Below, piece after piece: positions 29,680 through 47,228 of a stretch of DNA of 64,000 nt. Origin of the DNA: Candidatus Eisenbacteria bacterium. GTDB taxonomy: Bacteria; Eisenbacteria; RBG-16-71-46; CAIMUX01; JAHJDP01. The stretch lies in assembly GCA_018831195.1 (NCBI GenBank), contig JAHJDP010000100.1:1-64000 (forward strand). The letters are read 5' to 3'. Below the pieces are notes generated by a model. It was not told the origin of the DNA. It made no database searches and saw only the letters and a list, made by a program, of their open reading frames with translations. How positions within the stretch are numbered: the first letter of the stretch is position 1; each line of letters begins with the position of its first letter. Both the position numbers and the translations under genes were made by a program.

Positions 29680-31680
29680 CTACCGTGTCAGGATAAGTCT
29701 CCCGGAGGGTTTGAATTCATCCGTTGTCAGACGATAGAAATAGACGCCCGACGCGACCGGGCGGCCGGCATTATCGCGGCCGTCCCACTTGATTGAGTGG
29801 AGACCCGCCGGCTGTTGCCCCCTTGCGAGGGTTCGTATCAACGAACCGTCGGGGGCGAAGATCTGAAGATCCGCTTTCCCGCTCTTGGGAATCGCGAAGC
29901 TGAGGGTCGCCGCGCCCGCCGCGGGATTCGGGAAAGCCCGCACCATTGGCACGGATGAGAGCGCCGGTTCGGGCGCATCGATCGTGTCATGGAACCAATC
30001 CAGAATTCTTCCCATCAACAACCGCCGGTCATCGGCATTGTTGATCCCCTCATAACCGAACCCGAGATAAACGACCCGGTGCACCGGGGTGATCGCTTTG
30101 ATCCCCGCGGTATAATTTGAATTGTCATAGAAGAGGATCGGCGATGCCCATTGGTCGTATGGAACGATGGCGTCGGGGTACTCATTGTTGTTGGCGCCGT
30201 CGCCGCCGAGCAGATTGAGCGTTACTCCGTCGCCGATGGGATCATTAACTTTCCCGGTCAAGGTGTTCCGATTGGTGTCATCGATCAGATAATTTGTGTG
30301 GAGGTATTGGCGATACCAGGTGATCGCTGATCCGCCCTGATCCCAAGAATCCCAGCCCAAATCCTGGCCCGAAATGAAGAGTTTTCCACCGCCGTCCAGA
30401 TAAGCCCCAATGGCGGCGCGGTCGGCGTTGACCAGAGTTGGGAATGAGAATCCGATCTGCCATGACACAACGTCAAAATGTGAAAGATCGGCGCCGGTCG
30501 GCGCGCCGAGGTTTCTGTCATAGACGCCGTAGGTCGCCCCGTAGAATTCCAGGGCGTCCTTTTGATATTCCTCATAGGTGTCGGCGCCGTCATCGTCGAC
30601 GAGAAGAACATCCAAGCCGTTGGATGTTATATAATTGTAACGAATCTCTCTCTCAACACCGGGAAGATTTGCTGACGTCAATACGATTTTGGGCATCGCA
30701 TAACCGGGGCCGGCCGACGTCAGCTCCAGGTGGAATACCCGGCTTTCCCCGTTGTTTAGAGTGAGATCGACATAATCGGTATAGCTGTTGACACCGTCGG
30801 TGAAGGTGCAGGTCCAGCCGGCGGGGAGAGTGCCCGGATCAAGGGTGACCCGGATGTCATCCGACCACAACCCAAGATTGAAAACCGCAAAATTCTCAAA
30901 GCTGAATCGTGCATCCGACGGGCCCACGACCGCGCGGGCGCCTTTCGCGTAAAACCGGAGAGAGTAATCCGGTGCCTGGCGGTTGCTGGCCGATTGAAGA
31001 ATCGATCGGTCGTCATCATCCTGGATGATAACCGCCACCCAGAGCTTGGCCGTATCCCATCCCAGATCCATATCGAAAGATTGTACAACATTCTGAATCT
31101 GGCCCAGTGTGCCGACGGTCAGGGCGATATCGGGCGCAATGTCTCTTGTGAGATCGGTATAGTTTGCAGCAATATTAACATCATTTTCTAAAAGCAGGGC
31201 GCGGATATTAATATTGCCGATATCCGCCAATGTCTCCATCACCTCGACGTCAAAATCAATATCGCCCGTCACAAAGTTCACGCTGTTGATCGTAATCTTG
31301 AAGGGCGAAGGCACGGCGATCCCGTTGGCGACTGGCGCCGCATAACTGGCGCCGGTAGCGATTGTGGCGCCGCCCCCGACGACATTCAACGTGCCCTGGA
31401 AAATCACTGTAGGAAAAGACCCAACCCCATAGTAACCGCTGATTCGCTCATTCGTCTCGGTGGTGCCATAATCTCCGCTGGTCGCGTAGTAACGAACCGA
31501 AGTAAACTCATTGGTGTCATAGACACTCTTCATTACATCGAGACCAGCATAGGCATCCGGACAATAGCCGCACCAGGTGGCGGTGCAATCCTCCGCGATA
31601 ACACCCATGGGGTATTGCGCTGTCGCACCCGATGTGAAAACGATGAGTGCGGCCACCAAGAACCGGATAAACAATGTCAT
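29680..31680 (-). CDS. Secreted Omp28/thioredoxin-like protein with FlgD-like C-terminal domain
   Basis: Exported protein of 666 residues. A signal peptide (MTLFIRFLVAALIVFTSGA) leads to an Omp28-like thioredoxin fold with a redox-type motif (CTATWCGYCPDAYAGLD near 35) and a cis-Pro-like GSFPTVIFQG. A beta-sandwich region follows, then an alpha/beta domain with LDVLLVDDDGADTYEEYQKD, FDVVSWQIGF and GGGKLFISGQDLGWDS, found in many secreted FCB proteins. Last is a FlgD Ig-like domain (VRAFPNPAAGAATLSFAIP, LIRTLARGQQPAGLH, GVYFYRLT), probably a sorting or anchoring tail. The ATG at 31680 begins the signal peptide, with GGGGAGG four bases before it; upstream frame is not supported. Cargo and partner are unknown. 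Confidence 0.8.
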   Translation of the reverse strand: MTLFIRFLVAALIVFTSGATAQYPMGVIAEDCTATWCGYCPDAYAGLDVMKSVYDTNEFTSVRYYATSGDYGTTETNERISGYYGVGSFPTVIFQGTLNVVGGGATIATGASYAAPVANGIAVPSPFKITINSVNFVTGDIDFDVEVMETLADIGNINIRALLLENDVNIAANYTDLTRDIAPDIALTVGTLGQIQNVVQSFDMDLGWDTAKLWVAVIIQDDDDRSILQSASNRQAPDYSLRFYAKGARAVVGPSDARFSFENFAVFNLGLWSDDIRVTLDPGTLPAGWTCTFTDGVNSYTDYVDLTLNNGESRVFHLELTSAGPGYAMPKIVLTSANLPGVEREIRYNYITSNGLDVLLVDDDGADTYEEYQKDALEFYGATYGVYDRNLGAPTGADLSHFDVVSWQIGFSFPTLVNADRAAIGAYLDGGGKLFISGQDLGWDSWDQGGSAITWYRQYLHTNYLIDDTNRNTLTGKVNDPIGDGVTLNLLGGDGANNNEYPDAIVPYDQWASPILFYDNSNYTAGIKAITPVHRVVYLGFGYEGINNADDRRLLMGRILDWFHDTIDAPEPALSSVPMVRAFPNPAAGAATLSFAIPKSGKADLQIFAPDGSLIRTLARGQQPAGLHSIKWDGRDNAGRPVASGVYFYRLTTDEFKPSGRLILTR

Positions 31681-31799
31681 ACATCCTCCCCTTATGGGAT
31701 CCCGCCGCCGGCCGGGGAGCCCCCGCGGGACCAGTTGGTTGCTGCGACGTTTTTGCACAGGCCTCTGAGGCAGTCCTCATCAGAACCCCCTCTTAAATC

Positions 31800-31903: not shown

Positions 31904-32392
31904 TTAGTCACTGTCGGAATCGGCGACACCTCCACCCATACCGACCTGAGCTTCCGATTCCTGAGATCGCGGCCCCATCACCATGGTGGCCAGCGTGTAC
32001 TGATCCAGGACCGCTGAAATATTCTCCCGCACCTGCAACATGAGAAGACGGATCCAGCAATTCTCGATCTCATGGGGACAATCGCAGAACTTCTTATGAT
32101 CCATCTCCACACTTGCGCACAGCAGGGGCGCCAGCGGACCCTCCACGGCGCGAATAACATCGCCGACAGTGATCTCCTCCGGCGGGCGTATTAGGGAGTA
32201 TCCCCCGTCCTTCCCCCTTCTGCTCATTAGCAAACCGCTCTTTCGCAGAAGTGAAAGAATCTGCTCCAGATACTTCAGAGGAAGTCCCTCCTCGCGGGAT
32301 AGGTAGGCAACTGAAAGGGGCTCTTTGCCATAGTCTTCCGCAAGATGCCTGAGAACTCTCAGTGAATAGAGACCTTTATTAGATAGTTTCAT
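31904..32392 (-). CDS. Rrf2 family transcriptional regulator
   Basis: DNA-binding regulator of the Rrf2 (IscR/CymR) family, 162 residues. It opens MKLSNKGLYSLRVLRHLAED, the family N-terminus. A winged helix-turn-helix follows (SVAYLSREEGLPLKYLEQIL, LLMSRRGKDGGYSLIRPPEE), then a dimerisation helix. Cysteines at LLCASVEMDHKKFCDCPHE and ENCW could bind an iron-sulphur cluster, as in IscR, though their spacing is not identical. A short acidic Gly-rich tail ends it. It is divergent from the serine acetyltransferase gene, the classic position for a cysteine-metabolism regulator such as CymR, so it probably controls that operon and itself from the shared 183-base region. Confidence 0.9.
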   Translation of the reverse strand: MKLSNKGLYSLRVLRHLAEDYGKEPLSVAYLSREEGLPLKYLEQILSLLRKSGLLMSRRGKDGGYSLIRPPEEITVGDVIRAVEGPLAPLLCASVEMDHKKFCDCPHEIENCWIRLLMLQVRENISAVLDQYTLATMVMGPRSQESEAQVGMGGGVADSDSD

Positions 32393-32575: not shown

Positions 32576-33547
32576 ATGAGAAACGAGCGTATCCACGCCC
32601 GTCTATTAGAGTTCACTGAAGCCTTAACGAAGACATATGCGGCCGGACCCGTCCCGGGGCACAATATCGCACCGCGCTGTGCGCTCCCCTCACGATCAGT
32701 CGTGATCTCGATTTTGCGCCGCCTCTTCGAGGTCTTCTTTCCGGGTTTTTTCGGCAAGCAATATCTGACCAGGGAAAATATCAATTACTATATCGGCGCC
32801 CTCCTGGATGAGATTTCAGAAGATCTCGGCAATCAGATCTATTCCGCCGTTCGTCATCAGGATCCTTCGAACACGGATGACAAGGTAAAATACCGTTCCT
32901 ACTCGGAGGATTGCCTGGTCCGGCTTTTCGAGCAGCTCCCGGAGATCCGCCATAAACTGATGCTCGACACGCAAGCCGGTTTTGACGGCGATCCCGCCGC
33001 CAAAACCTATAACGAGGTTATCTTCAGCTATCCGGGACTTGTCGCCATTTGCACGTACCGTGTAGCCCATGAGCTGGAAATTCTGGGTGTCCCCCTATTA
33101 CCCCGTATCATGTCCGAATATGCACATTCCAAGACCGGTATCGATATCCATCCCGGCGCGACAATCGGCGAGAGGTTTTTTATCGACCACGGCACCGGTA
33201 TCGTCATCGGCGAAACTTCAATTATCGGTAACAATGTAAAACTCTACCAGGGCGTAACACTCGGCGCTTTGAGTTTTCCGAAAGATGAGCGCGGCAAACT
33301 CATACGGGGACTCCGCAGGCATCCACAGATCTGCGACAGCGTGGTCATCTATTCCGGCGCCACCATCCTCGGCAATATCACTATCGGAGAGAAGAGTGTC
33401 ATCGGTGGTAATGTTTGGCTGACTCAATCCGTCCCGCCGAATACGAAAGTACTCAACACACCGCAACTTCCTCAATTCCGCCCACAGGGTGACTCTAAAA
33501 AAGGGACGGATTCAAAACCCGATTCCAGTCCTGAGACCCCGGCGTAA
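32576..33547 (+). CDS. cysE: Serine O-acetyltransferase (EpsC/CysE type)
   Basis: Makes O-acetylserine from serine and acetyl-CoA, the first step of cysteine synthesis; cytosolic. The 323 residues match the longer EpsC type. An alpha-helical N-terminal domain (about 60-180) includes [17 protein letters not shown]. The left-handed beta-helix from about 185 includes [53 protein letters not shown] and [20 protein letters not shown], with the catalytic His in IDHGTG and DIHPGA. A Pro/Ser-rich tail follows. The 70 extra residues at the start ([17 protein letters not shown]) are common in this subtype. It is divergent from the Rrf2 regulator. The next gene starts two bases after the stop. Confidence 0.93.
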
Positions 33548-33549
33548 TA

Positions 33550-34827
33550 ATGAGGAAGGATCCGCGGACGCTTCTGGTCGCCGCCATAGTCTTCAATATC
33601 ATTGTTGTCTTTGTTCTCCTGCCTGCCGTTAAAGATCTTTATCCCTACATCAATATCGATACCTTTCCCGATCATTATGAAAAACTCGCAATGAACCTGG
33701 CCGAGGGTAATGGTTATCGATTCTATGCGGAAACGTCTGCGACCATGGGCCGGACACCCGGGTATCCTCTGATTCTTGCCCTTGTTTTTCTTCTCACCGG
33801 CAAGAGTCTCTTCGCCGCAAAGCTGATTAATTTACTCTTCGCTGTGGCAACGGCTTATATGATCCGAATCCTTGTCCGTGGTTTTTCGCACAGCAAACTC
33901 GTGATGTATCTGACACCTCTATTCTTTTTGCTTCATCCCGCGACCCTTCTGGCAGAGACGAGAGGAGGGCCCGAGATCGTCCTGGCCTTTTCGATCACCC
34001 TCTCTTTGAATCTGCTGTACCACGCCATCAGGACCGGACGGGGAAGGGATCATTTTCTGACCGGTCTCGCCCTCGGCGTCTCTACATTGATCAAATCGAC
34101 AACGCTGCTCTTTCCTTTTGCCTGGCTGGTCTTCTCGCCTCTCTTTCGAAAAGCCGGATTAAAGCGAGCTTGCCGCGGCGCCCTCCTTATGATTCTCGGC
34201 CTGTCGGCGGTTCTATCCCCATGGATTATCCGCAATGCCCGAGTCTCCGGAAAATTTGTGCCGACAATGACCGTTGTCGGCATGTCGGCGAGCCAAGGAC
34301 TTGCCATCTGCAAAAACGCCGTTCTCCTGAAACCCTGGACTGAAGGAAATTATACCGGCCGCGGGATGAATGAGGCGGCTTATGCGGGGCTGCAGGAAGC
34401 TGCGAAACTGGGTTACAAGTGCAAGGGGCGGTATTTTATCTTTTTCTATTCGACCCATGATGAGATTGAGTTCAATGCTCATCTTCTTGACCAGGTGATC
34501 GATGAATATAAACGCTCACCACTCCTTCTGTTAAAATGTCTCTGGGTCAATCTGTTCAACTTCTGGTTTGCCGGCGTCACCATCCTGGCGACCCTCATCA
34601 ACATGCTGATACAAACACCGCTGATGGTTTTCGCCGCGATCGGGGCCGTGCGATACATCAAATCGGCCAGGTCCGAGCTGGTCATGCCCCTGGTTCTGTT
34701 CATTGGATACTATGTCGCCGTCCACATTCCCATCCTCGCCATTGCCAGGCACTCCCTGCCCCTGATCCCCATTCTGGCGGTCCTGGCGTCGGGTTTATTG
34801 GAACACTTCCAATCAAAGTTCTCTTGA
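33550..34827 (+). CDS. GT39/ArnT-like membrane glycosyltransferase
   Basis: Polytopic membrane enzyme of 425 residues, GT39-like (PMT/ArnT-type), expected to move a sugar from a polyprenyl-phosphate donor on the outer face of the inner membrane. The first helix is VAAIVFNIIVVFVLLPAV. The first extracytoplasmic loop has acidic residues (NIDTFPDHYEKLAMNLAEG) and GRTPGYPLILALVF, a typical family layout. At least eight more helices follow (LINLLFAVATAYMIRILV, LVMYLTPLFFLLHPATLL, GALLMILGLSAVLSPWII), with a charged loop EYKRSPLLLLKCLW. It is shorter than ArnT and lacks a large C-terminal domain. It sits two bases after cysE, so it is cotranscribed, although no functional link to cysteine is clear. 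Confidence 0.75.
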   Translation: MRKDPRTLLVAAIVFNIIVVFVLLPAVKDLYPYINIDTFPDHYEKLAMNLAEGNGYRFYAETSATMGRTPGYPLILALVFLLTGKSLFAAKLINLLFAVATAYMIRILVRGFSHSKLVMYLTPLFFLLHPATLLAETRGGPEIVLAFSITLSLNLLYHAIRTGRGRDHFLTGLALGVSTLIKSTTLLFPFAWLVFSPLFRKAGLKRACRGALLMILGLSAVLSPWIIRNARVSGKFVPTMTVVGMSASQGLAICKNAVLLKPWTEGNYTGRGMNEAAYAGLQEAAKLGYKCKGRYFIFFYSTHDEIEFNAHLLDQVIDEYKRSPLLLLKCLWVNLFNFWFAGVTILATLINMLIQTPLMVFAAIGAVRYIKSARSELVMPLVLFIGYYVAVHIPILAIARHSLPLIPILAVLASGLLEHFQSKFS

Positions 34828-34861: not shown

Positions 34862-36160
34862 ATGATGACGGACCCACGATTCGACTTGCCTTCCAGCGTC
34901 CTCTCCCGCCGGGAGTTCCTCCTGAAGACCTTGAAAGGAGGGCTGATCGCCGGGGGCGCCGGCCCGCTTCTGTCACCACTTCTGTCTCAGATGCTGCCAC
35001 CCGCCCCGAAATTCGAGTTTCTTCGATCCGGCGGGAGCGCCGCGTGGGCGTCCGACGGATGGGAGGATCTGCTGCGCCTCGCTCCCACAGCCCGATATTG
35101 GATCTCGTCAGACACGGATGGCGGGATCTGCCGCTCCTGCCATGCGGCGGATGACCGGTCCGCCCCGACCCCGCACCCTCATAAAGAAAGGATCATTAAA
35201 TGTCTTCTCTGCGCCCAGGGTTGCCTGATAAAGGAAGGCGATCGCGGCCGGTGCCGGGCAAGGATCCATATCAAGGGTGAGCTTCGCAGCCTTGTCTACG
35301 GCCGCCCCGTTTCGGTGCATATCGATCCAATCGAAAAGAAACCCCTTTATCATTTTTTGCCGGGCTCACAGGCCTTCTCTATTTCAACGGCGGGATGTCC
35401 GCTCTCTTGTAAATTCTGCCAGAACTGGGAACTTTCCCAGGCTCGGCCCGAGGATTTCGATGTTCCTTATACCCCCCCTCGAGAAATATCCGCTTCCGCT
35501 GAGCGGAATAACGTCCCGGTGATTGCCTTCACATATAATGAGCCGACGGTTTTTGTTGAATACTTCACCGATATCGCCCGGGATGCGCGGCGTTTGGGGC
35601 TCCGCTCAGTGTTGATTAGCTGCGGATTCATGATGGAGGATCCCCTGGCGGAAATGTGTGATGCCCTGGATGCCATCAAGATCGATCTCAAAGGTTTCAG
35701 CCGCGACTTTTACCGTAATGTCTGCGGCGCTGAGTTGGAGCCGGTTCTGCGCAGCATACGCCAGGTCGCCAAGAGCGGAACGCATCTGGAAATCGTCAAT
35801 CTCGTCGTGCCGACCCTGAACGATTCCGATGCCATGTTAAATGACTTAGCGGATTGGGTTGTGAATGAGGCCGGCCCCGATGTTCCGGTCCACTTCACTC
35901 GGTTCCATCCGGACTTTCAAATGCGCAATCTGCCCCCCACACCGGTCGCCACACTGGAACGCGCCCGGGAGATCGCCATCGGCAAAGGGATACGCTACGC
36001 CTTTGTGGGCAATGTCCCCGATCATCCGGGTAACAACACATTTTGCCCCAAGTGCGGCAAAGCCGTCATTGAGCGCAAGGGATTTTTTATTTTGAAGAAT
36101 CACATGACCGGAGGGGTGTGCGGGTACTGCGGGGAGCCGTTGGCGGGAGTTTGGTCATGA
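34862..36160 (+). CDS. amrS: AmmeMemoRadiSam system radical SAM protein AmrS with Tat signal
   Basis: Radical SAM enzyme of the AmmeMemoRadiSam family, 432 residues. The [4Fe-4S] motif is CPLSCKFCQNWELSQ near residue 178. Before it are further cysteines (CRSCHAADDR; CLLCAQGCLIKEGDRGRC) and after it AFTYNEPTVFVEYF, LRSVLISCGFMMEDPLAEMC and KIDLKGFSRDFYRNVC, standard for the family. A zinc-ribbon-like end (FCPKCGKAVIER, CGYCGEPLAG) closes it. The N-terminus has a twin-arginine motif (SRREFLLKTLKGGLIAGGAG), suggesting export of a folded, cofactor-loaded protein. Two adjacent ATGs follow TAAGGAG; the second (34865) has better spacing. The substrate is unknown. The gene for the fused AmrB-AmrA partner starts 25 bases later. 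Confidence 0.9.
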   Translation: MMTDPRFDLPSSVLSRREFLLKTLKGGLIAGGAGPLLSPLLSQMLPPAPKFEFLRSGGSAAWASDGWEDLLRLAPTARYWISSDTDGGICRSCHAADDRSAPTPHPHKERIIKCLLCAQGCLIKEGDRGRCRARIHIKGELRSLVYGRPVSVHIDPIEKKPLYHFLPGSQAFSISTAGCPLSCKFCQNWELSQARPEDFDVPYTPPREISASAERNNVPVIAFTYNEPTVFVEYFTDIARDARRLGLRSVLISCGFMMEDPLAEMCDALDAIKIDLKGFSRDFYRNVCGAELEPVLRSIRQVAKSGTHLEIVNLVVPTLNDSDAMLNDLADWVVNEAGPDVPVHFTRFHPDFQMRNLPPTPVATLERAREIAIGKGIRYAFVGNVPDHPGNNTFCPKCGKAVIERKGFFILKNHMTGGVCGYCGEPLAGVWS

Positions 36161-36185
36161 CCGCCGGGAGCAGCGAGGAAAAACA

Positions 36186-37715
36186 ATGAAATTCAGAGTG
36201 ATGGCAGGGCTGTTTATTCTGGGTCTTTCAATGGGAATCTTGTGGCCCTATCACGCCTCTTCCGGTGAGGGCGGGATTCGCCCCCCAGCTGTTGCCGGAA
36301 AGTTTTATCCCGATGATCCTGAAAAGTTGGGCCGCGCCATCGACCTCTATTTAATGGACGCCAAACCGGCCACCGGCCTCAAACCGATCGCCCTGGTCGC
36401 GCCCCACGCCGGTTTCACTTTCTCCGGTCAGATCGCCGCCGACGCCTATAAACAAGCGCAGAATCATGATTATGATCTCGTGGTTATTCTGGGAACAAAC
36501 CATACGGCGCCCGGTTTTAACGGCGTCTCCCTCTTTGCCGGGGAAGGATACCGGACACCCCTCGGTGTGGCCGCCGTCGAGCAGGCCCTGACACAGTCCC
36601 TCATTTTGATGGATGACGATTTCACATCAAAACCCGAAATACATGCGAATGAACATTCCATAGAGGTACAGATCCCATTCATCCAACGGATATTCCCCGG
36701 CCGGCCGATTATTGCGGCCATTGTCGGCAGGCCGGATCCAGATCTTTGCCGGCGTTTCGGCGCCGCCCTGGCTTCCGTGATACGGGACCGGAACGCGTTG
36801 ATTATCGCCAGCACAGATCTTTCACATTACCCATCCTATGACGACGCCATCGCCGTGGATCATGCGACACTGAAATCGATGATCAGCCTGGATCCCGCGG
36901 CGGTCAGAATTAGTATACTTGAACAAAAACAAAAAAATTACCCAAACCTATCCACCTGCGCCTGCGGCGAGGGGCCGATTCTTGCCTCCATCTTCGCGGC
37001 GGTCGAATTGGGCGCCACAGGCGCCACCATCATCAGCTATGCCAATTCCGGGGATACCTCACTCGGGGATCCCAGCCGCGTCGTCGGTTACGGCGCCGCC
37101 TCCATTCATAAAGGTGTGAGCAACGCTTCCGCTCTGGATGATCCACCTCCGCTGGAATTGAATCCGGCACTATCGGCCGAAGATAAAAAGTGGCTGCTCG
37201 CCTTCGCCCGTGATACGGTGCATCGCTATCTCACCACCGGTACAACCCCTCTGGCGCGGCCTGAGAATCCGATGTTGCACCGGCGGCGGGGCGCTTTCGT
37301 TACGCTGAAGACCCAGCATCAATTGCGGGGCTGTATCGGCCATATGGCCGAAGATTCGCCCCTCTGCCAGGTGATTGGGGCAATGGCCTTGCAGGCCGCC
37401 TTCAACGATCGCCGTTTCGACCCGGTTCGGGCCGATGAACTTTCCGGGATTGAATTTGAGGTCTCTGTTTTGACGCCGTTTCAGCCTATTAACGGGCCTG
37501 AATCGATCGTCATCGGACGCGACGGCGTTGTGATTCGAAAGGATCAACACTCGGCCGTTTTTCTCCCTCAGGTCGCGCTGGAACAGGGATGGAACCGCGA
37601 TGAGATGCTGACGCAACTTTGCCGGAAGGCCGGCCTCTATGGCGAATGCTGGAAGGAAAATGCGGAGCTCTTCACCTTCCAGGCCGATGTCTTTCACGAA
37701 CAGGATTACAGATAA
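36186..37715 (+). CDS. amrB: AmrB-AmrA fusion (Memo and AMMECR1 domains) with signal peptide
   Basis: Fusion of the two other AmmeMemoRadiSam components, 509 residues. Residues 1-28 look like a Sec signal peptide (FRVMAGLFILGLSMGILWPY). The Memo (AmrB) part runs from about 32 to 315: RPPAVAGKFYPDDPEKL, APHAGFTFSGQIAADAY, VILGTNHTAPGFNG, HANEHSIEVQIPFIQR and ASTDLSHYPSYDDAIAVDH, with the histidines typical of the metal site. After a linker, the AMMECR1 (AmrA) part fills about 330-505: HRRRGAFVTLKTQHQLRGCI, MALQAAFNDRRFDPVRADEL, IEFEVSVLTPFQPI. The domains are often separate genes. GAGG lies seven bases upstream of the ATG. Function is unknown, presumably with AmrS. Confidence 0.92.
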   Translation: MKFRVMAGLFILGLSMGILWPYHASSGEGGIRPPAVAGKFYPDDPEKLGRAIDLYLMDAKPATGLKPIALVAPHAGFTFSGQIAADAYKQAQNHDYDLVVILGTNHTAPGFNGVSLFAGEGYRTPLGVAAVEQALTQSLILMDDDFTSKPEIHANEHSIEVQIPFIQRIFPGRPIIAAIVGRPDPDLCRRFGAALASVIRDRNALIIASTDLSHYPSYDDAIAVDHATLKSMISLDPAAVRISILEQKQKNYPNLSTCACGEGPILASIFAAVELGATGATIISYANSGDTSLGDPSRVVGYGAASIHKGVSNASALDDPPPLELNPALSAEDKKWLLAFARDTVHRYLTTGTTPLARPENPMLHRRRGAFVTLKTQHQLRGCIGHMAEDSPLCQVIGAMALQAAFNDRRFDPVRADELSGIEFEVSVLTPFQPINGPESIVIGRDGVVIRKDQHSAVFLPQVALEQGWNRDEMLTQLCRKAGLYGECWKENAELFTFQADVFHEQDYR

Positions 37716-37741
37716 TCGGAACAGAAGCTCAATAGACTATT

Positions 37742-39898
37742 ATGGCTTGCTTGCTCTTTATCATTGGATTCTTGTCCATCTTTGGACAGATCACCCTAAT
37801 GCGTGAACTCAATATCGCCCTTTTCGGCACCGAGCTGATCTATATTCTGTCCCTTGGGATATGGCTGGTGTGGACGGCTCTCGGCGCCGCTGTCCCATGG
37901 CGTCGGTCCGCTTCGCCGGTGGACCGGATCCGGAATCCGTTTCTATTCATCGGCCTGGCGTTGCCCCTTGTTGTTGTTTTTATTCGCGGCTATCCCCTGA
38001 TCTTCAAAACCACACCCGGTCTCTTTCTTCCCTTTCAATATCAACTTCTATTGATCGGGATAGCCCTTTCCCCCATCGGATTCCTCCTCGGATGGCTTTT
38101 CCAGTGGACGGCCAAGGCCTTTATGTCGGATAAGCGGACGTTGGCCGCCGCCTACGCCATTGAATGCGCCGGGGGTGTCGCAGGGGGATTAGGATCCGGC
38201 TTGGCCCTAAAATGGGGAGTGCAGAATTTCACTTTGATGCTCATCTGCAGTTTGACGGCTGTTGTAACCGCGATACTTTTCACCCATTCCCGAGGACGGA
38301 AGCTATACTACCCCGGCGTTATCGTCGGTTCTCTCCTGCTCGTTCTGCTGATCCAATCCGAATCGGTTGATCATTGGATGACATCCTGGAACCACCCCGG
38401 TTTGGTGAGCTCCAAGGATACTCCCTACACCAGAATATCGGTGGTTTTAAGAAATCAACAGATCATCGTTTTCTCAAATGGTGAATTTGCCTACGAGACC
38501 GAAGGCACGGCGGCCGAAGAGTTTGTGCATCATGCCGCCCTGCAGCATCCCGCCCCATCCAACATCTTGATTTTGGGAGGAGGTGTTCAAGGCACTATTC
38601 GCGAGGTATTGAAGCACCGGCCGGAACGGGTGACTTCCGTCGAGATGGATGCGGCCTGCAACCAATTGATCGTCCCACTGCTCTCACAAAGCGACCGACA
38701 GGCGATGTCGCAACCCAACGTCGATCATATCATCGCGGACCCACGAAGGTTTCTTCATAACTCCGGAGAATATGATCTTATTTATATTGGGATGCCGGAA
38801 CCGACATCCGGCACAACAAATCGTTTTTATACAGAGGAGTTTTTCGATCTTTGTTCGGAATCTCTAGACCCGGGCGGCATCCTTTCATTGAAGCTGCTCT
38901 CTTCGGAAAACCAGTGGACACAGCCGCTGATTCTTCGAACCGCAAGCATCTATAATGCCCTTTCCGCGGTGTTCGGTGATGTTCTCATCCTACCCGGGGC
39001 GATGAATGTTATTCTCGCCTCCAACACAACCCTGATTAGAGATCCTGAAGTTCTTGGATCCAGGCTTAAAAAGCGGGGGATAAAGACCAGAGTCATTTCG
39101 GAACCTTTCCTAGAGTATTTGTATACCAACGACCGGTTTGTAGAGATTCCAAAACTTCTCAGCGCGAATCCCGGCATTCTCAACAGGGATTCAAAACCGG
39201 TCTGTTATCAATACACTCAATTATTGTGGCTTTCACAATTCTTCCCATCATTGAAAAACCTTGACTTCACAAAAATCATATCGGAGAAGGGGCGGGTGGG
39301 AGGCCCCACCCTGGCGATTGTCCTTATGATACCCATCTCCCTGCTTCTCATCCGATGCCACAATAGGCTCAAGCGAATCTTTCTGGCCCTGATTTCAAGT
39401 TTTGTGGGGATGGTCATCGAAACAATGCTGCTGCTTGTCTATCAGTCGCAGGTGGGCGCCCTTTATCGGGATCTTGGGATTCTTTTAAGCCTTTTTATGG
39501 CAGGCCTGGCGGCGGGCGCCTGGATGATTCATCGCCTGGAGCGCTCATGGATTCGTCGGATCAACACCCCGGCGGCGGGATGGTGCCTGGTCACGCTTTT
39601 CGGTACTTTTGGCATCGTCGTTGCGCTCCTCATCCGGCAAGACGGAATCTTCAGCCTATTCCATACATCCCTGCTCATCTTCCTTGATGGATATTTTGTT
39701 GCGGCGATATTCGCCTACTGCGGCATGTCTGAGGCCGAGGATCCCGGCGCTTTGGTTTCGCCCCTTTATACCTCGGACCTTATCGGAGGGTGTTTGGGAT
39801 CGCTGGCAGCAAGTCTGTTGCTGATCCCGGTTGCGGGAATGGCCGCCTCGACCTGGGGGGCGGCGCTGCTGGCATTCTGCCTGCTCCTTCTTATCTAA
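37742..39898 (+). CDS. Membrane-fused spermidine-synthase-like protein
   Basis: Polytopic protein of 718 residues with a methyltransferase-fold centre. N-terminal helices (about 1-215) include LLFIIGFLSIFGQITLMREL, then LPLVVVFIRGYPLIF and LLLIGIALSPIGFLLG. The Rossmann part (about 220-420) is like spermidine synthase: SNGEFAYETEGTAAEEFVHH, the SAM loop ILILGGGVQGTIREVLKHRP and VTSVEMDAACNQLIVPLL. The usual catalytic D--DP segment is replaced by YIGMPEPTSGTTNRFYTEEF, so aminopropyl transfer to putrescine is doubtful. C-terminal helices (about 515-718) follow. Fusions like this are common in FCB bacteria and are uncharacterised. It lies 26 bases after the AmrB-AmrA gene and is likely cotranscribed. 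Its stop abuts the convergent response regulator. Confidence 0.82.
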   Translation: MACLLFIIGFLSIFGQITLMRELNIALFGTELIYILSLGIWLVWTALGAAVPWRRSASPVDRIRNPFLFIGLALPLVVVFIRGYPLIFKTTPGLFLPFQYQLLLIGIALSPIGFLLGWLFQWTAKAFMSDKRTLAAAYAIECAGGVAGGLGSGLALKWGVQNFTLMLICSLTAVVTAILFTHSRGRKLYYPGVIVGSLLLVLLIQSESVDHWMTSWNHPGLVSSKDTPYTRISVVLRNQQIIVFSNGEFAYETEGTAAEEFVHHAALQHPAPSNILILGGGVQGTIREVLKHRPERVTSVEMDAACNQLIVPLLSQSDRQAMSQPNVDHIIADPRRFLHNSGEYDLIYIGMPEPTSGTTNRFYTEEFFDLCSESLDPGGILSLKLLSSENQWTQPLILRTASIYNALSAVFGDVLILPGAMNVILASNTTLIRDPEVLGSRLKKRGIKTRVISEPFLEYLYTNDRFVEIPKLLSANPGILNRDSKPVCYQYTQLLWLSQFFPSLKNLDFTKIISEKGRVGGPTLAIVLMIPISLLLIRCHNRLKRIFLALISSFVGMVIETMLLLVYQSQVGALYRDLGILLSLFMAGLAAGAWMIHRLERSWIRRINTPAAGWCLVTLFGTFGIVVALLIRQDGIFSLFHTSLLIFLDGYFVAAIFAYCGMSEAEDPGALVSPLYTSDLIGGCLGSLAASLLLIPVAGMAASTWGAALLAFCLLLLI

Positions 39899-45850: not shown

Positions 45851-45917
45851 ATACTCTTAGCAAAACCTCCGGCATGTCGTAGAATGCTTGAAAAGGTCAA
45901 GGTCAAAGGAGGCCGGA

Positions 45918-47228
45918 GTGTTTTTGAAATCAGCTCTTACCCCTATTCTCTTCATCATGGCCCTGCTTTCAATCGACCCGTCTCACGCAAAAGACAATTT
46001 CACACCCGATTTTGATACCCTTGCAAAAAAATATGAATCTTCCGCGATCGAGCAGCGGCGGCATATACACCAAAATCCGGAATTGTCTTCTCGGGAATTC
46101 AAGACTCAAGCCAATTTGAGGGAAGCGCTCAAAGAGATCCCCGGTATCAAGATTATTGAGGGCGAATGGGGCACCGGAGTTGTCGCCATACTCGAGGGTG
46201 GCAAACCGGGACCGATCGTCGCCTGGCGGACCGATATGGATGCCCTCCCGATAACCGAAGAGACAGGCCTCCCCTATGCAAGCACCGTGGTCGACACGCT
46301 GCGGGGCGGCCGGCAGACCGGCGTTATGCATGCCTGCGGTCATGATTTTCACATGGCTATCGCCGTTGGCTTGATGAGAATCCTGTCGGATGTGAGAGAC
46401 GAGTTGCCTGGTGCGGTTCTCTTCATCGGCGAACCGGCGGAAGAGATCGGCGCAGGAGCGCTTCAGCTTCTTGAAGCCGGGCTCTTTGATGAGGGCCGCC
46501 TTCCACAATGCGCCTTGGCCATCCACATCCACCCGACAATCCCCTTCGGCATGGTGGGCTCGTGTCCGGGGCCGTCCTCAGCCAACGTCGACGGGTTCAG
46601 ACTCCGTGTGCTTGGTAAGGGCGGGCATGGCGCCTATCCTCACAAGACGATCGATCCGGTGACTCTTGCCGCTCGAATGGTTCTGGCATTTCAGGCCATC
46701 GTATCACGTGAAATCGATGTCAATCGGAATTGCGTGATCTCCGTCGGAAGCATCAACGGCGGCGCAACGAGTAATGTCATACCTGGTGAAGTCCTGATTG
46801 ATGCGACAGTGCGCAGCCATGACCAGGAAACCAGGGAATTATTAAAACAAAAAATCGAAAGAACGGTCTCGGGGTTGGCGATGGCCGCCGGCGCCCCGGA
46901 ACCGGAAATGGAATATTATTACGGTACGGCATCCGGATATAACAATCCGACACTTGTCGAACAATGTCGCGAGGTCTTTCGCAGGGTCCTTGGCGATGAA
47001 AACGAGATCATCTACGAGCCGCCCATGGGAGGAGAGGACTTTTCCTACTATGGAAAACAGGTGCCGGGATTTCAATTCCGTCTTGGTGTCGGGCGCTCAG
47101 ACCGGGAAATGGCGCTTCATCGCGCCAATCTCGACCCCGATGAACGGGCGATCGGGTTGGGACTCCGTTTGGCCGCGGAGGTTGTCTGGGATCAGCTCCA
47201 GCGCGGAGAAGATACCTTCGGCAACTAG
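45918..47228 (+). CDS. Exported M20-family amidohydrolase
   Basis: Zinc-dependent amidohydrolase or carboxypeptidase of the M20D family (hippurate hydrolase/IAA-amino acid hydrolase-like), 436 residues. A signal peptide (FLKSALTPILFIMALLSI, DPSHA) precedes the core. Metal ligands: Cys and His in GVMHACGHDFHMA, the Glu pair in FIGEPAEEIGAGA, His in ALAIHIHPTIPFG, and the last His in GGEDFSYYG context. The dimerisation domain starts near FRLRVLGKGGHGAYPHKTID. It probably hydrolyses N-acyl amino acids outside the cytoplasm. The frame opens at a TTG at 45888, but GTG at 45918 has AGGAGG five bases before it and begins the signal peptide. It stands alone, downstream of the signalling operon. Confidence 0.9.
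   Translation: MFLKSALTPILFIMALLSIDPSHAKDNFTPDFDTLAKKYESSAIEQRRHIHQNPELSSREFKTQANLREALKEIPGIKIIEGEWGTGVVAILEGGKPGPIVAWRTDMDALPITEETGLPYASTVVDTLRGGRQTGVMHACGHDFHMAIAVGLMRILSDVRDELPGAVLFIGEPAEEIGAGALQLLEAGLFDEGRLPQCALAIHIHPTIPFGMVGSCPGPSSANVDGFRLRVLGKGGHGAYPHKTIDPVTLAARMVLAFQAIVSREIDVNRNCVISVGSINGGATSNVIPGEVLIDATVRSHDQETRELLKQKIERTVSGLAMAAGAPEPEMEYYYGTASGYNNPTLVEQCREVFRRVLGDENEIIYEPPMGGEDFSYYGKQVPGFQFRLGVGRSDREMALHRANLDPDERAIGLGLRLAAEVVWDQLQRGEDTFGN

Follow-up and report, generated by a model that had tools for sequence, protein, structure and literature searches.

We analysed a 64,000-nucleotide window of a Candidatus Eisenbacteria genome (G000; window coordinates equal positions 1–64,000 of contig JAHJDP010000100.1) and found three consecutive plus-strand genes that we consider, with good confidence, to make up an extracytoplasmic form of the AmmeMemoRadiSam system. 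They specify a radical S-adenosylmethionine (SAM) enzyme, AmrS; a fusion of AmrB and AmrA (Memo–AMMECR1); and a membrane protein with a spermidine-synthase-like domain. A preliminary description of the locus had located the reaction either at the membrane or beyond the cytoplasm, a prediction supported here by the position of export-type AmrS proteins on one side of a tree, their link to TatC, signals or lipoboxes on the partner protein and a domain of the membrane protein predicted to lie outside. The three AmmeMemoRadiSam families (TIGR04335, TIGR04336 and TIGR04337) were all matched above curated cut-offs, but the canonical members examined lack export signals, whereas the window set carries signals, has AmrB and AmrA fused and is joined by a partner resembling the major facilitator superfamily (MFS).

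Predicted export signals on AmrS and the AmrB–AmrA fusion

The window AmrS (AmrS-E, for the exported clade described below; 432 residues; 34862–36160, +) matched TIGR04337 at 369.5 bits (cut-off 220), but only from residue 108 onwards, and thus has an N-terminal extension of about 107 residues. The twin-arginine motif SRREFL that had been reported at its start was recovered as SRREFLLK (R16, R17), followed by a hydrophobic segment and, at residues 60–65 (AAWA/SD), by an AxA site, and the start codon (ATG at 34862) is preceded by a Shine–Dalgarno-like AAGGAG. AmrS passed the class test for twin-arginine translocation (Tat) features, with an SRREFLL motif, a weak hydrophobicity of 1.32 and a start codon upstream, and the arginine pair was invariant in 17 aligned Tat-type relatives. 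We read the first 66 residues as a predicted Tat signal (signal peptide at 34862–35050, +; RR at 34907–34912; AWA site after residue 63, placed by eye). The window genome also encodes TatC (G000:C12, E 5.6e-60).

The catalytic core appears intact. The radical SAM motif CxxxCxxC (C179, C183 and C186; 35396–35419, +) was invariant across 68 aligned clade members, and a DLK stretch aligned to pyruvate formate-lyase (PFL)-activating enzyme was conserved. The best Protein Data Bank match of the AmrS model (pLDDT 89.6) was PFL-activating enzyme in its SAM-bound form (3cb8). Structures of this enzyme (3c8f, 3cb8 and 8fo0) are the closest solved radical SAM structures in both sequence and fold, although the enzyme is cytoplasmic, identity is about 17% and they have no counterpart of the N-terminal four-cysteine part, the C-terminal cysteine pair or the signal of AmrS.

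Between signal and core lies a CxxCH motif (C90–H94) together with a further histidine, His107, which precedes C114, the first cysteine of the core, by seven residues (35129–35182, +). This arrangement, a possible bis-His c-haem or zinc site, was present in 8/8 complete members of the subgroup to which the window AmrS belongs. CxxCH was found at that position in 0/107 other clade members, which rules it out as a general trait of exported AmrS. The model is uncertain in this region (low pLDDT). Haem-c assembly proteins are encoded in the window genome; the assembly protein PF01578 occurred in 4/4 tested CxxCH genomes but also in 23/33 others, and does not discriminate between them.

The AmrB–AmrA fusion (509 residues; 36186–37715, +; PF01875 and PF01871) matched TIGR04336 at residues 32–305 (226.8 bits, cut-off 26) and TIGR04335 at residues 336–503 (177.6 bits, cut-off 99). 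The residues preceding the TIGR04336 match, MKFRVMAGLFILGLSMGILWPYHASS, bear out the Sec-like signal proposed for this protein (36186–36263, +; cleavage predicted by eye near ASS/GEGG). By a signal rule set after the values had been seen, 57/65 AmrB–AmrA fusions carry signals (3 more by eye) compared with 1/19 stand-alone AmrB proteins, and many of the fusion signals include a lipobox-like cysteine. Human MEMO1 (7kq8 and 3bcz) is intracellular and not fused to AMMECR1. The AmrB part aligned with it over its full length, and the conserved H74, H106 and C260 of the fusion align with H49, H81 and C244, the iron ligands of MEMO1 (PMC11081632).

Five further Memo-domain proteins (L286, L287, L288, L289 and L290 from G003, G015, G034, G046 and G145, respectively) were divergent and had 130–215 extra N-terminal residues of PqqD/RRE-type appearance by eye, with no Pfam match in the 3/5 checked; Memo–RRE fusions are mentioned in the literature (PMC12710340).

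A clade of export-type AmrS and its link to TatC

Export-type N-termini of AmrS occur beyond chance expectation and map to one clade. We scanned 194 genomes, 114 of which had AmrS above the cut-off. Of 232 matches, 229 were scored and 224 entered the tree after short or identical cores were dropped. A set of 80 named loci is biased by the Tat-type query used to retrieve it, and counts are therefore quoted from a broad sample of 148 AmrS cores. Export-type labels came from a purpose-written script rather than SignalP, applied to stop-to-stop frames, and some were set by eye: L038, L042, L154, L199 and L200 were changed after viewing neighbours, L048, L159, L166 and L167 after viewing the tree, and L034 was also changed.

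In the broad-sample IQ-TREE tree, all 41 export-type AmrS fell on one side of a single branch (SH-aLRT 94), together with 4/104 signal-less AmrS. The clade comprised 47 cores, 41 with export-type N-termini, 5 without (1 cut by a contig end) and 1 masked; outside it were 100 signal-less AmrS and 1 masked, and 0/100 unmasked proteins passed the signal tests. Without the edits by eye, 37 rather than 41 signals remained in the clade and still none outside. The signal trait required 3 changes on the tree, compared with a mean of 36 for shuffled labels, and a larger set with 76 named loci agreed, although its clade contained a greater number of signal-less proteins. The preliminary description had held that its reading would be refuted if most relatives lacked the extension and were cytosolic; this is the case for AmrS at large (104/145 scorable) but not for the window's clade. 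One member of the window's order, G008, has an AmrS core identical to that of a Candidatus Eisenbacteria metagenome-assembled genome (L053 and L211).

The idea that the signals are chance products or mis-called starts could draw on unverified start codons and the use of stop-to-stop frames. However, codon-shuffled N-regions passed the same tests at rates of only 0.33% (RR), 0.35% (KR/RK) and 0.95% (Sec/transmembrane (TM)) in 4540 trials. Together with the absence of signals from the canonical clade, the association with TatC and partner signals described here and the Shine–Dalgarno-like sequence at the window AmrS start, these rates led us to reject it as scarcely credible.

Signal type followed the translocase. 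TatC was found in 28/37 genomes with export-type AmrS and in 42/56 further ones. In TatC-positive genomes, 50/57 export-type AmrS were Tat-type, or 51 with the window's own protein, whose signal lies beyond the 95-residue cut of the script; in TatC-negative genomes, 18/22 were Sec/TM-type, and 2 of the 4 exceptions came from genomes less than 80% complete. The hydrophobicity threshold separating the two types was chosen after the values had been seen. Median maximum hydrophobicity was 1.66 in TatC-positive and 2.66 in TatC-negative genomes (Mann–Whitney p about 2e-8; neither this nor the Fisher values are corrected for relatedness). The comparison excludes 18 genomes with signal-less or masked AmrS, 16 of which have TatC. 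Meaningless N-termini would not be expected to track the occurrence of the Tat translocase in this way.

A membrane partner with a spermidine-synthase-like domain

The third gene (37742–39898, +; 718 residues) is, as described earlier, membrane-embedded and spermidine-synthase-like: PF01564 matched at residues 259–393, and the structure model (pLDDT 89.7, pTM 0.91) comprises seven helices, a spermidine-synthase fold and another seven helices. The membrane part resembles the MFS chains SV2A (9okg) and OCTN2 (9pdq), with Z scores of 25–26 over residues 1–718 and alignments of 319–330 residues at a root-mean-square deviation of 3.4–3.7 (SV2A, Z 26.1 over 330 residues); unlike these transporters, the window protein has two additional helices as well as the inserted domain. 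Pfam MFS_1 matched 3/40 relatives (best E 1.8e-4) and did not match the window protein. The preliminary description had attributed export signals to all components, which held for AmrS and AmrB–AmrA, but the membrane protein is polytopic and has no signal peptide; what counts in its case is the side to which its soluble domain faces. MFS proteins standardly start with the N-terminus inside, and with seven preceding helices the inserted domain (residues 207–518; 38360–39295, +) is predicted to face outside. With loop sides assigned from family averages, loops assigned to the inside contained more lysine and arginine than those assigned to the outside in 49/49 full-length relatives.

The inserted domain has the fold of SpeE (1uir and 1inl; Z about 30). 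Positions corresponding to the Glu and Asp that bind the ribose and the adenine in SpeE were kept in 42/51 and 49/51 proteins, respectively. Unlike SpeE, the window protein is membrane-embedded, the catalytic Asp of DxxDP for aminopropyl transfer is replaced by Gly and present in only 9/51 relatives, and the D of GGGDGG is replaced. Since the adenosyl-side residues are kept and the catalytic Asp is lost, the protein is spermidine-synthase-like in fold but no spermidine synthase, and we rejected spermidine synthesis as its function. Judged by these residues, it probably binds an adenosyl compound. The likeliest function, although we give it less than even odds, is that it carries bound SAM or a related nucleoside through the membrane, or that it acts as a SAM-dependent transferase outside.

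The membrane protein is tightly associated with the exported clade, occurring in 41/43 genomes that have this clade compared with 4/151 others. In this count, partial matches at contig ends (G006 and G008) were scored present, G046 was scored absent despite a match in locus L065, and a G090 match of full length but weak score (186 bits) was left uncounted. First iterations of the AmrB and membrane-protein searches yielded counts identical to those of single passes. At broad-sample loci over 6 kb, the membrane gene adjoined AmrS in 20/34 clade loci versus 0/81 canonical loci, and the AmrB–AmrA fusion did so in 16/34 versus 0/81.

Genomic setting, proposed mechanism and alternatives

The window genome also encodes a second AmrS on another contig (503 bits) and a second AmrB–AmrA, both without signals, and thus appears to have two compartment-specific sets. 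Across 106 genomes, 35 had both kinds of AmrS, 8 only the exported and 63 only the canonical kind. The presence of cytoplasmic AmrS and AmrB–AmrA in the same genome leaves unsupported the earlier suggestion that location limits the substrate to an envelope lipid, glycan or protein.

A DUF362 protein accompanied AmrS in 16/101 clade loci, compared with 1 weak match among 87 canonical loci (loci over 6 kb). The gene lies directly upstream of a Tat-type AmrS on the same strand in L029, L033, L038, L039, L042, L043, L049, L051, L052, L062, L175, L176, L182, L194, L208 and L217; most of the upstream proteins have a twin-arginine signal by eye. No DUF362 gene adjoined AmrS in the CxxCH subgroup loci or lay next door in the window, although 8 DUF362 stretches occur elsewhere in the window genome. 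With 16/101 clade loci and none next door in the window, DUF362 was rejected as a constant partner.

In the window, the three genes belong to a plus-strand run of four to five closely spaced genes, with gaps of 2, 34, 25 and 26 bases. It begins with a CysE-like gene resembling serine O-acetyltransferase (32576–33547; TIGR01172, score below the cut-off) and a PMT_2-type membrane glycosyltransferase-like gene (33550–34827; PF13231), which ends 34 bases upstream of AmrS; both possibly belong to the same operon as the AmrS set. No PMT_2-type cluster was present among the recurrent neighbours listed for AmrS loci, and this gene is not a recurrent partner. Divergent from the CysE-like gene is a Rrf2-family regulator (CymR/IscR-like; 31904–32392, −) that could sense cysteine or Fe–S status. 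Other genes in the window encode a secreted protein that opens with a thioredoxin-like CxYC segment, contains an Omp28-like region and ends in a tail of the kind found with the type IX secretion system (29680–31758, −), and an M20-family peptidase or amidohydrolase with a hydrophobic, signal-like N terminus (45888–47228, +).

We propose that AmrS would fold in the cytoplasm, take up its [4Fe–4S] cluster and be exported through Tat, whereas AmrB–AmrA, lipoprotein-like in many relatives by its sequence features, would leave through Sec. The MFS-like carrier, with its spermidine-synthase-like domain outside, would handle SAM or a related nucleoside, and AmrB might then hold the substrate on which AmrS generates a radical. 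Electrons could reach AmrS from a c-haem at CxxCH...H in the window's subgroup, a role that an upstream Tat-type DUF362 protein may fill in another subgroup; the canonical cytoplasmic AmrS and AmrB–AmrA would perform a matching job inside. Taken as a whole, this scheme would combine a radical SAM enzyme exported through Tat with an anchored MEMO–AMMECR1 protein, a dedicated MFS carrier that has an external SAM-binding domain and provides SAM outside, and a c-haem or exported DUF362 protein as the electron route; it is speculative, and we consider it less likely than not.

Several observations weigh against an extracytoplasmic system. An outside radical SAM enzyme needs SAM and a strong reductant, and we know of neither there. 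Signals were missing from 18/116 clade members, of which 2 are truncated where the contig ends; the others include Bacteroidales and archaeal proteins, and several adjoin an AmrB–AmrA that retains its signal. Frameshifts were rejected as a general cause, since L026 alone had a signal-like stretch in a different frame; this stretch lies some 71 codons ahead of the core of AmrS and points to a frameshift or assembly error. Some labels were assigned by eye once neighbours had been seen, and L223 and L159 have Tat-type AmrS although no TatC was found in their genomes, which may be incomplete. Sec/TM-type AmrS in TatC-less genomes retain CxxxCxxC, and since Sec translocates unfolded chains, their cluster loading is unexplained. 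In addition, roughly one in three of the membrane proteins has a degenerate version of the GGG motif for nucleotide binding.

The N-terminal segments might instead only tether AmrS, leaving its catalytic domain in the cytoplasm with SAM, ferredoxin and cluster assembly. To our knowledge, radical SAM enzymes are all cytoplasmic; moreover, the strongly hydrophobic N-termini in TatC-less genomes could be plain anchors, and export through Sec would hinder cluster loading. We nevertheless consider a tether unlikely, because TatC-positive genomes show weakly hydrophobic RR signals, often with AxA sites, like those of Tat export; basic residues before the hydrophobic part put the following domain outside; and the fusion partners bear Sec signals or lipoboxes, with the domain of the membrane protein predicted outside as well. 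We give still less credence to an AmrS that is exported yet does not work as a radical SAM enzyme outside, serving as a metal-binding partner or acting before export as a loaded carrier. The lack of a known SAM pool or reductant outside would favour such a role, but the role fits poorly with the invariance of CxxxCxxC, the retained DLK stretch and the match of the model to a SAM-bound structure. An extracytoplasmic AmmeMemoRadiSam system is therefore the reading we prefer.

The component families are known; our searches of an open-licence paper library brought up no description of the exported clade, the TatC link or the MFS-like partner, and none of a radical SAM enzyme outside the cytoplasm, which would be unexpected. 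The MEMO/AMMECR1/AmrS set is widespread and of unexplained function, and an exported clade that spans many phyla beside a cytoplasmic one strongly constrains its cofactor and electron supply, with the MFS/spermidine-synthase-like protein, a nearly obligate new partner, offering a handle on the reaction. If the proposed scheme is true, SAM-radical chemistry would not be confined to the cytoplasm, and SAM could be supplied outside it.

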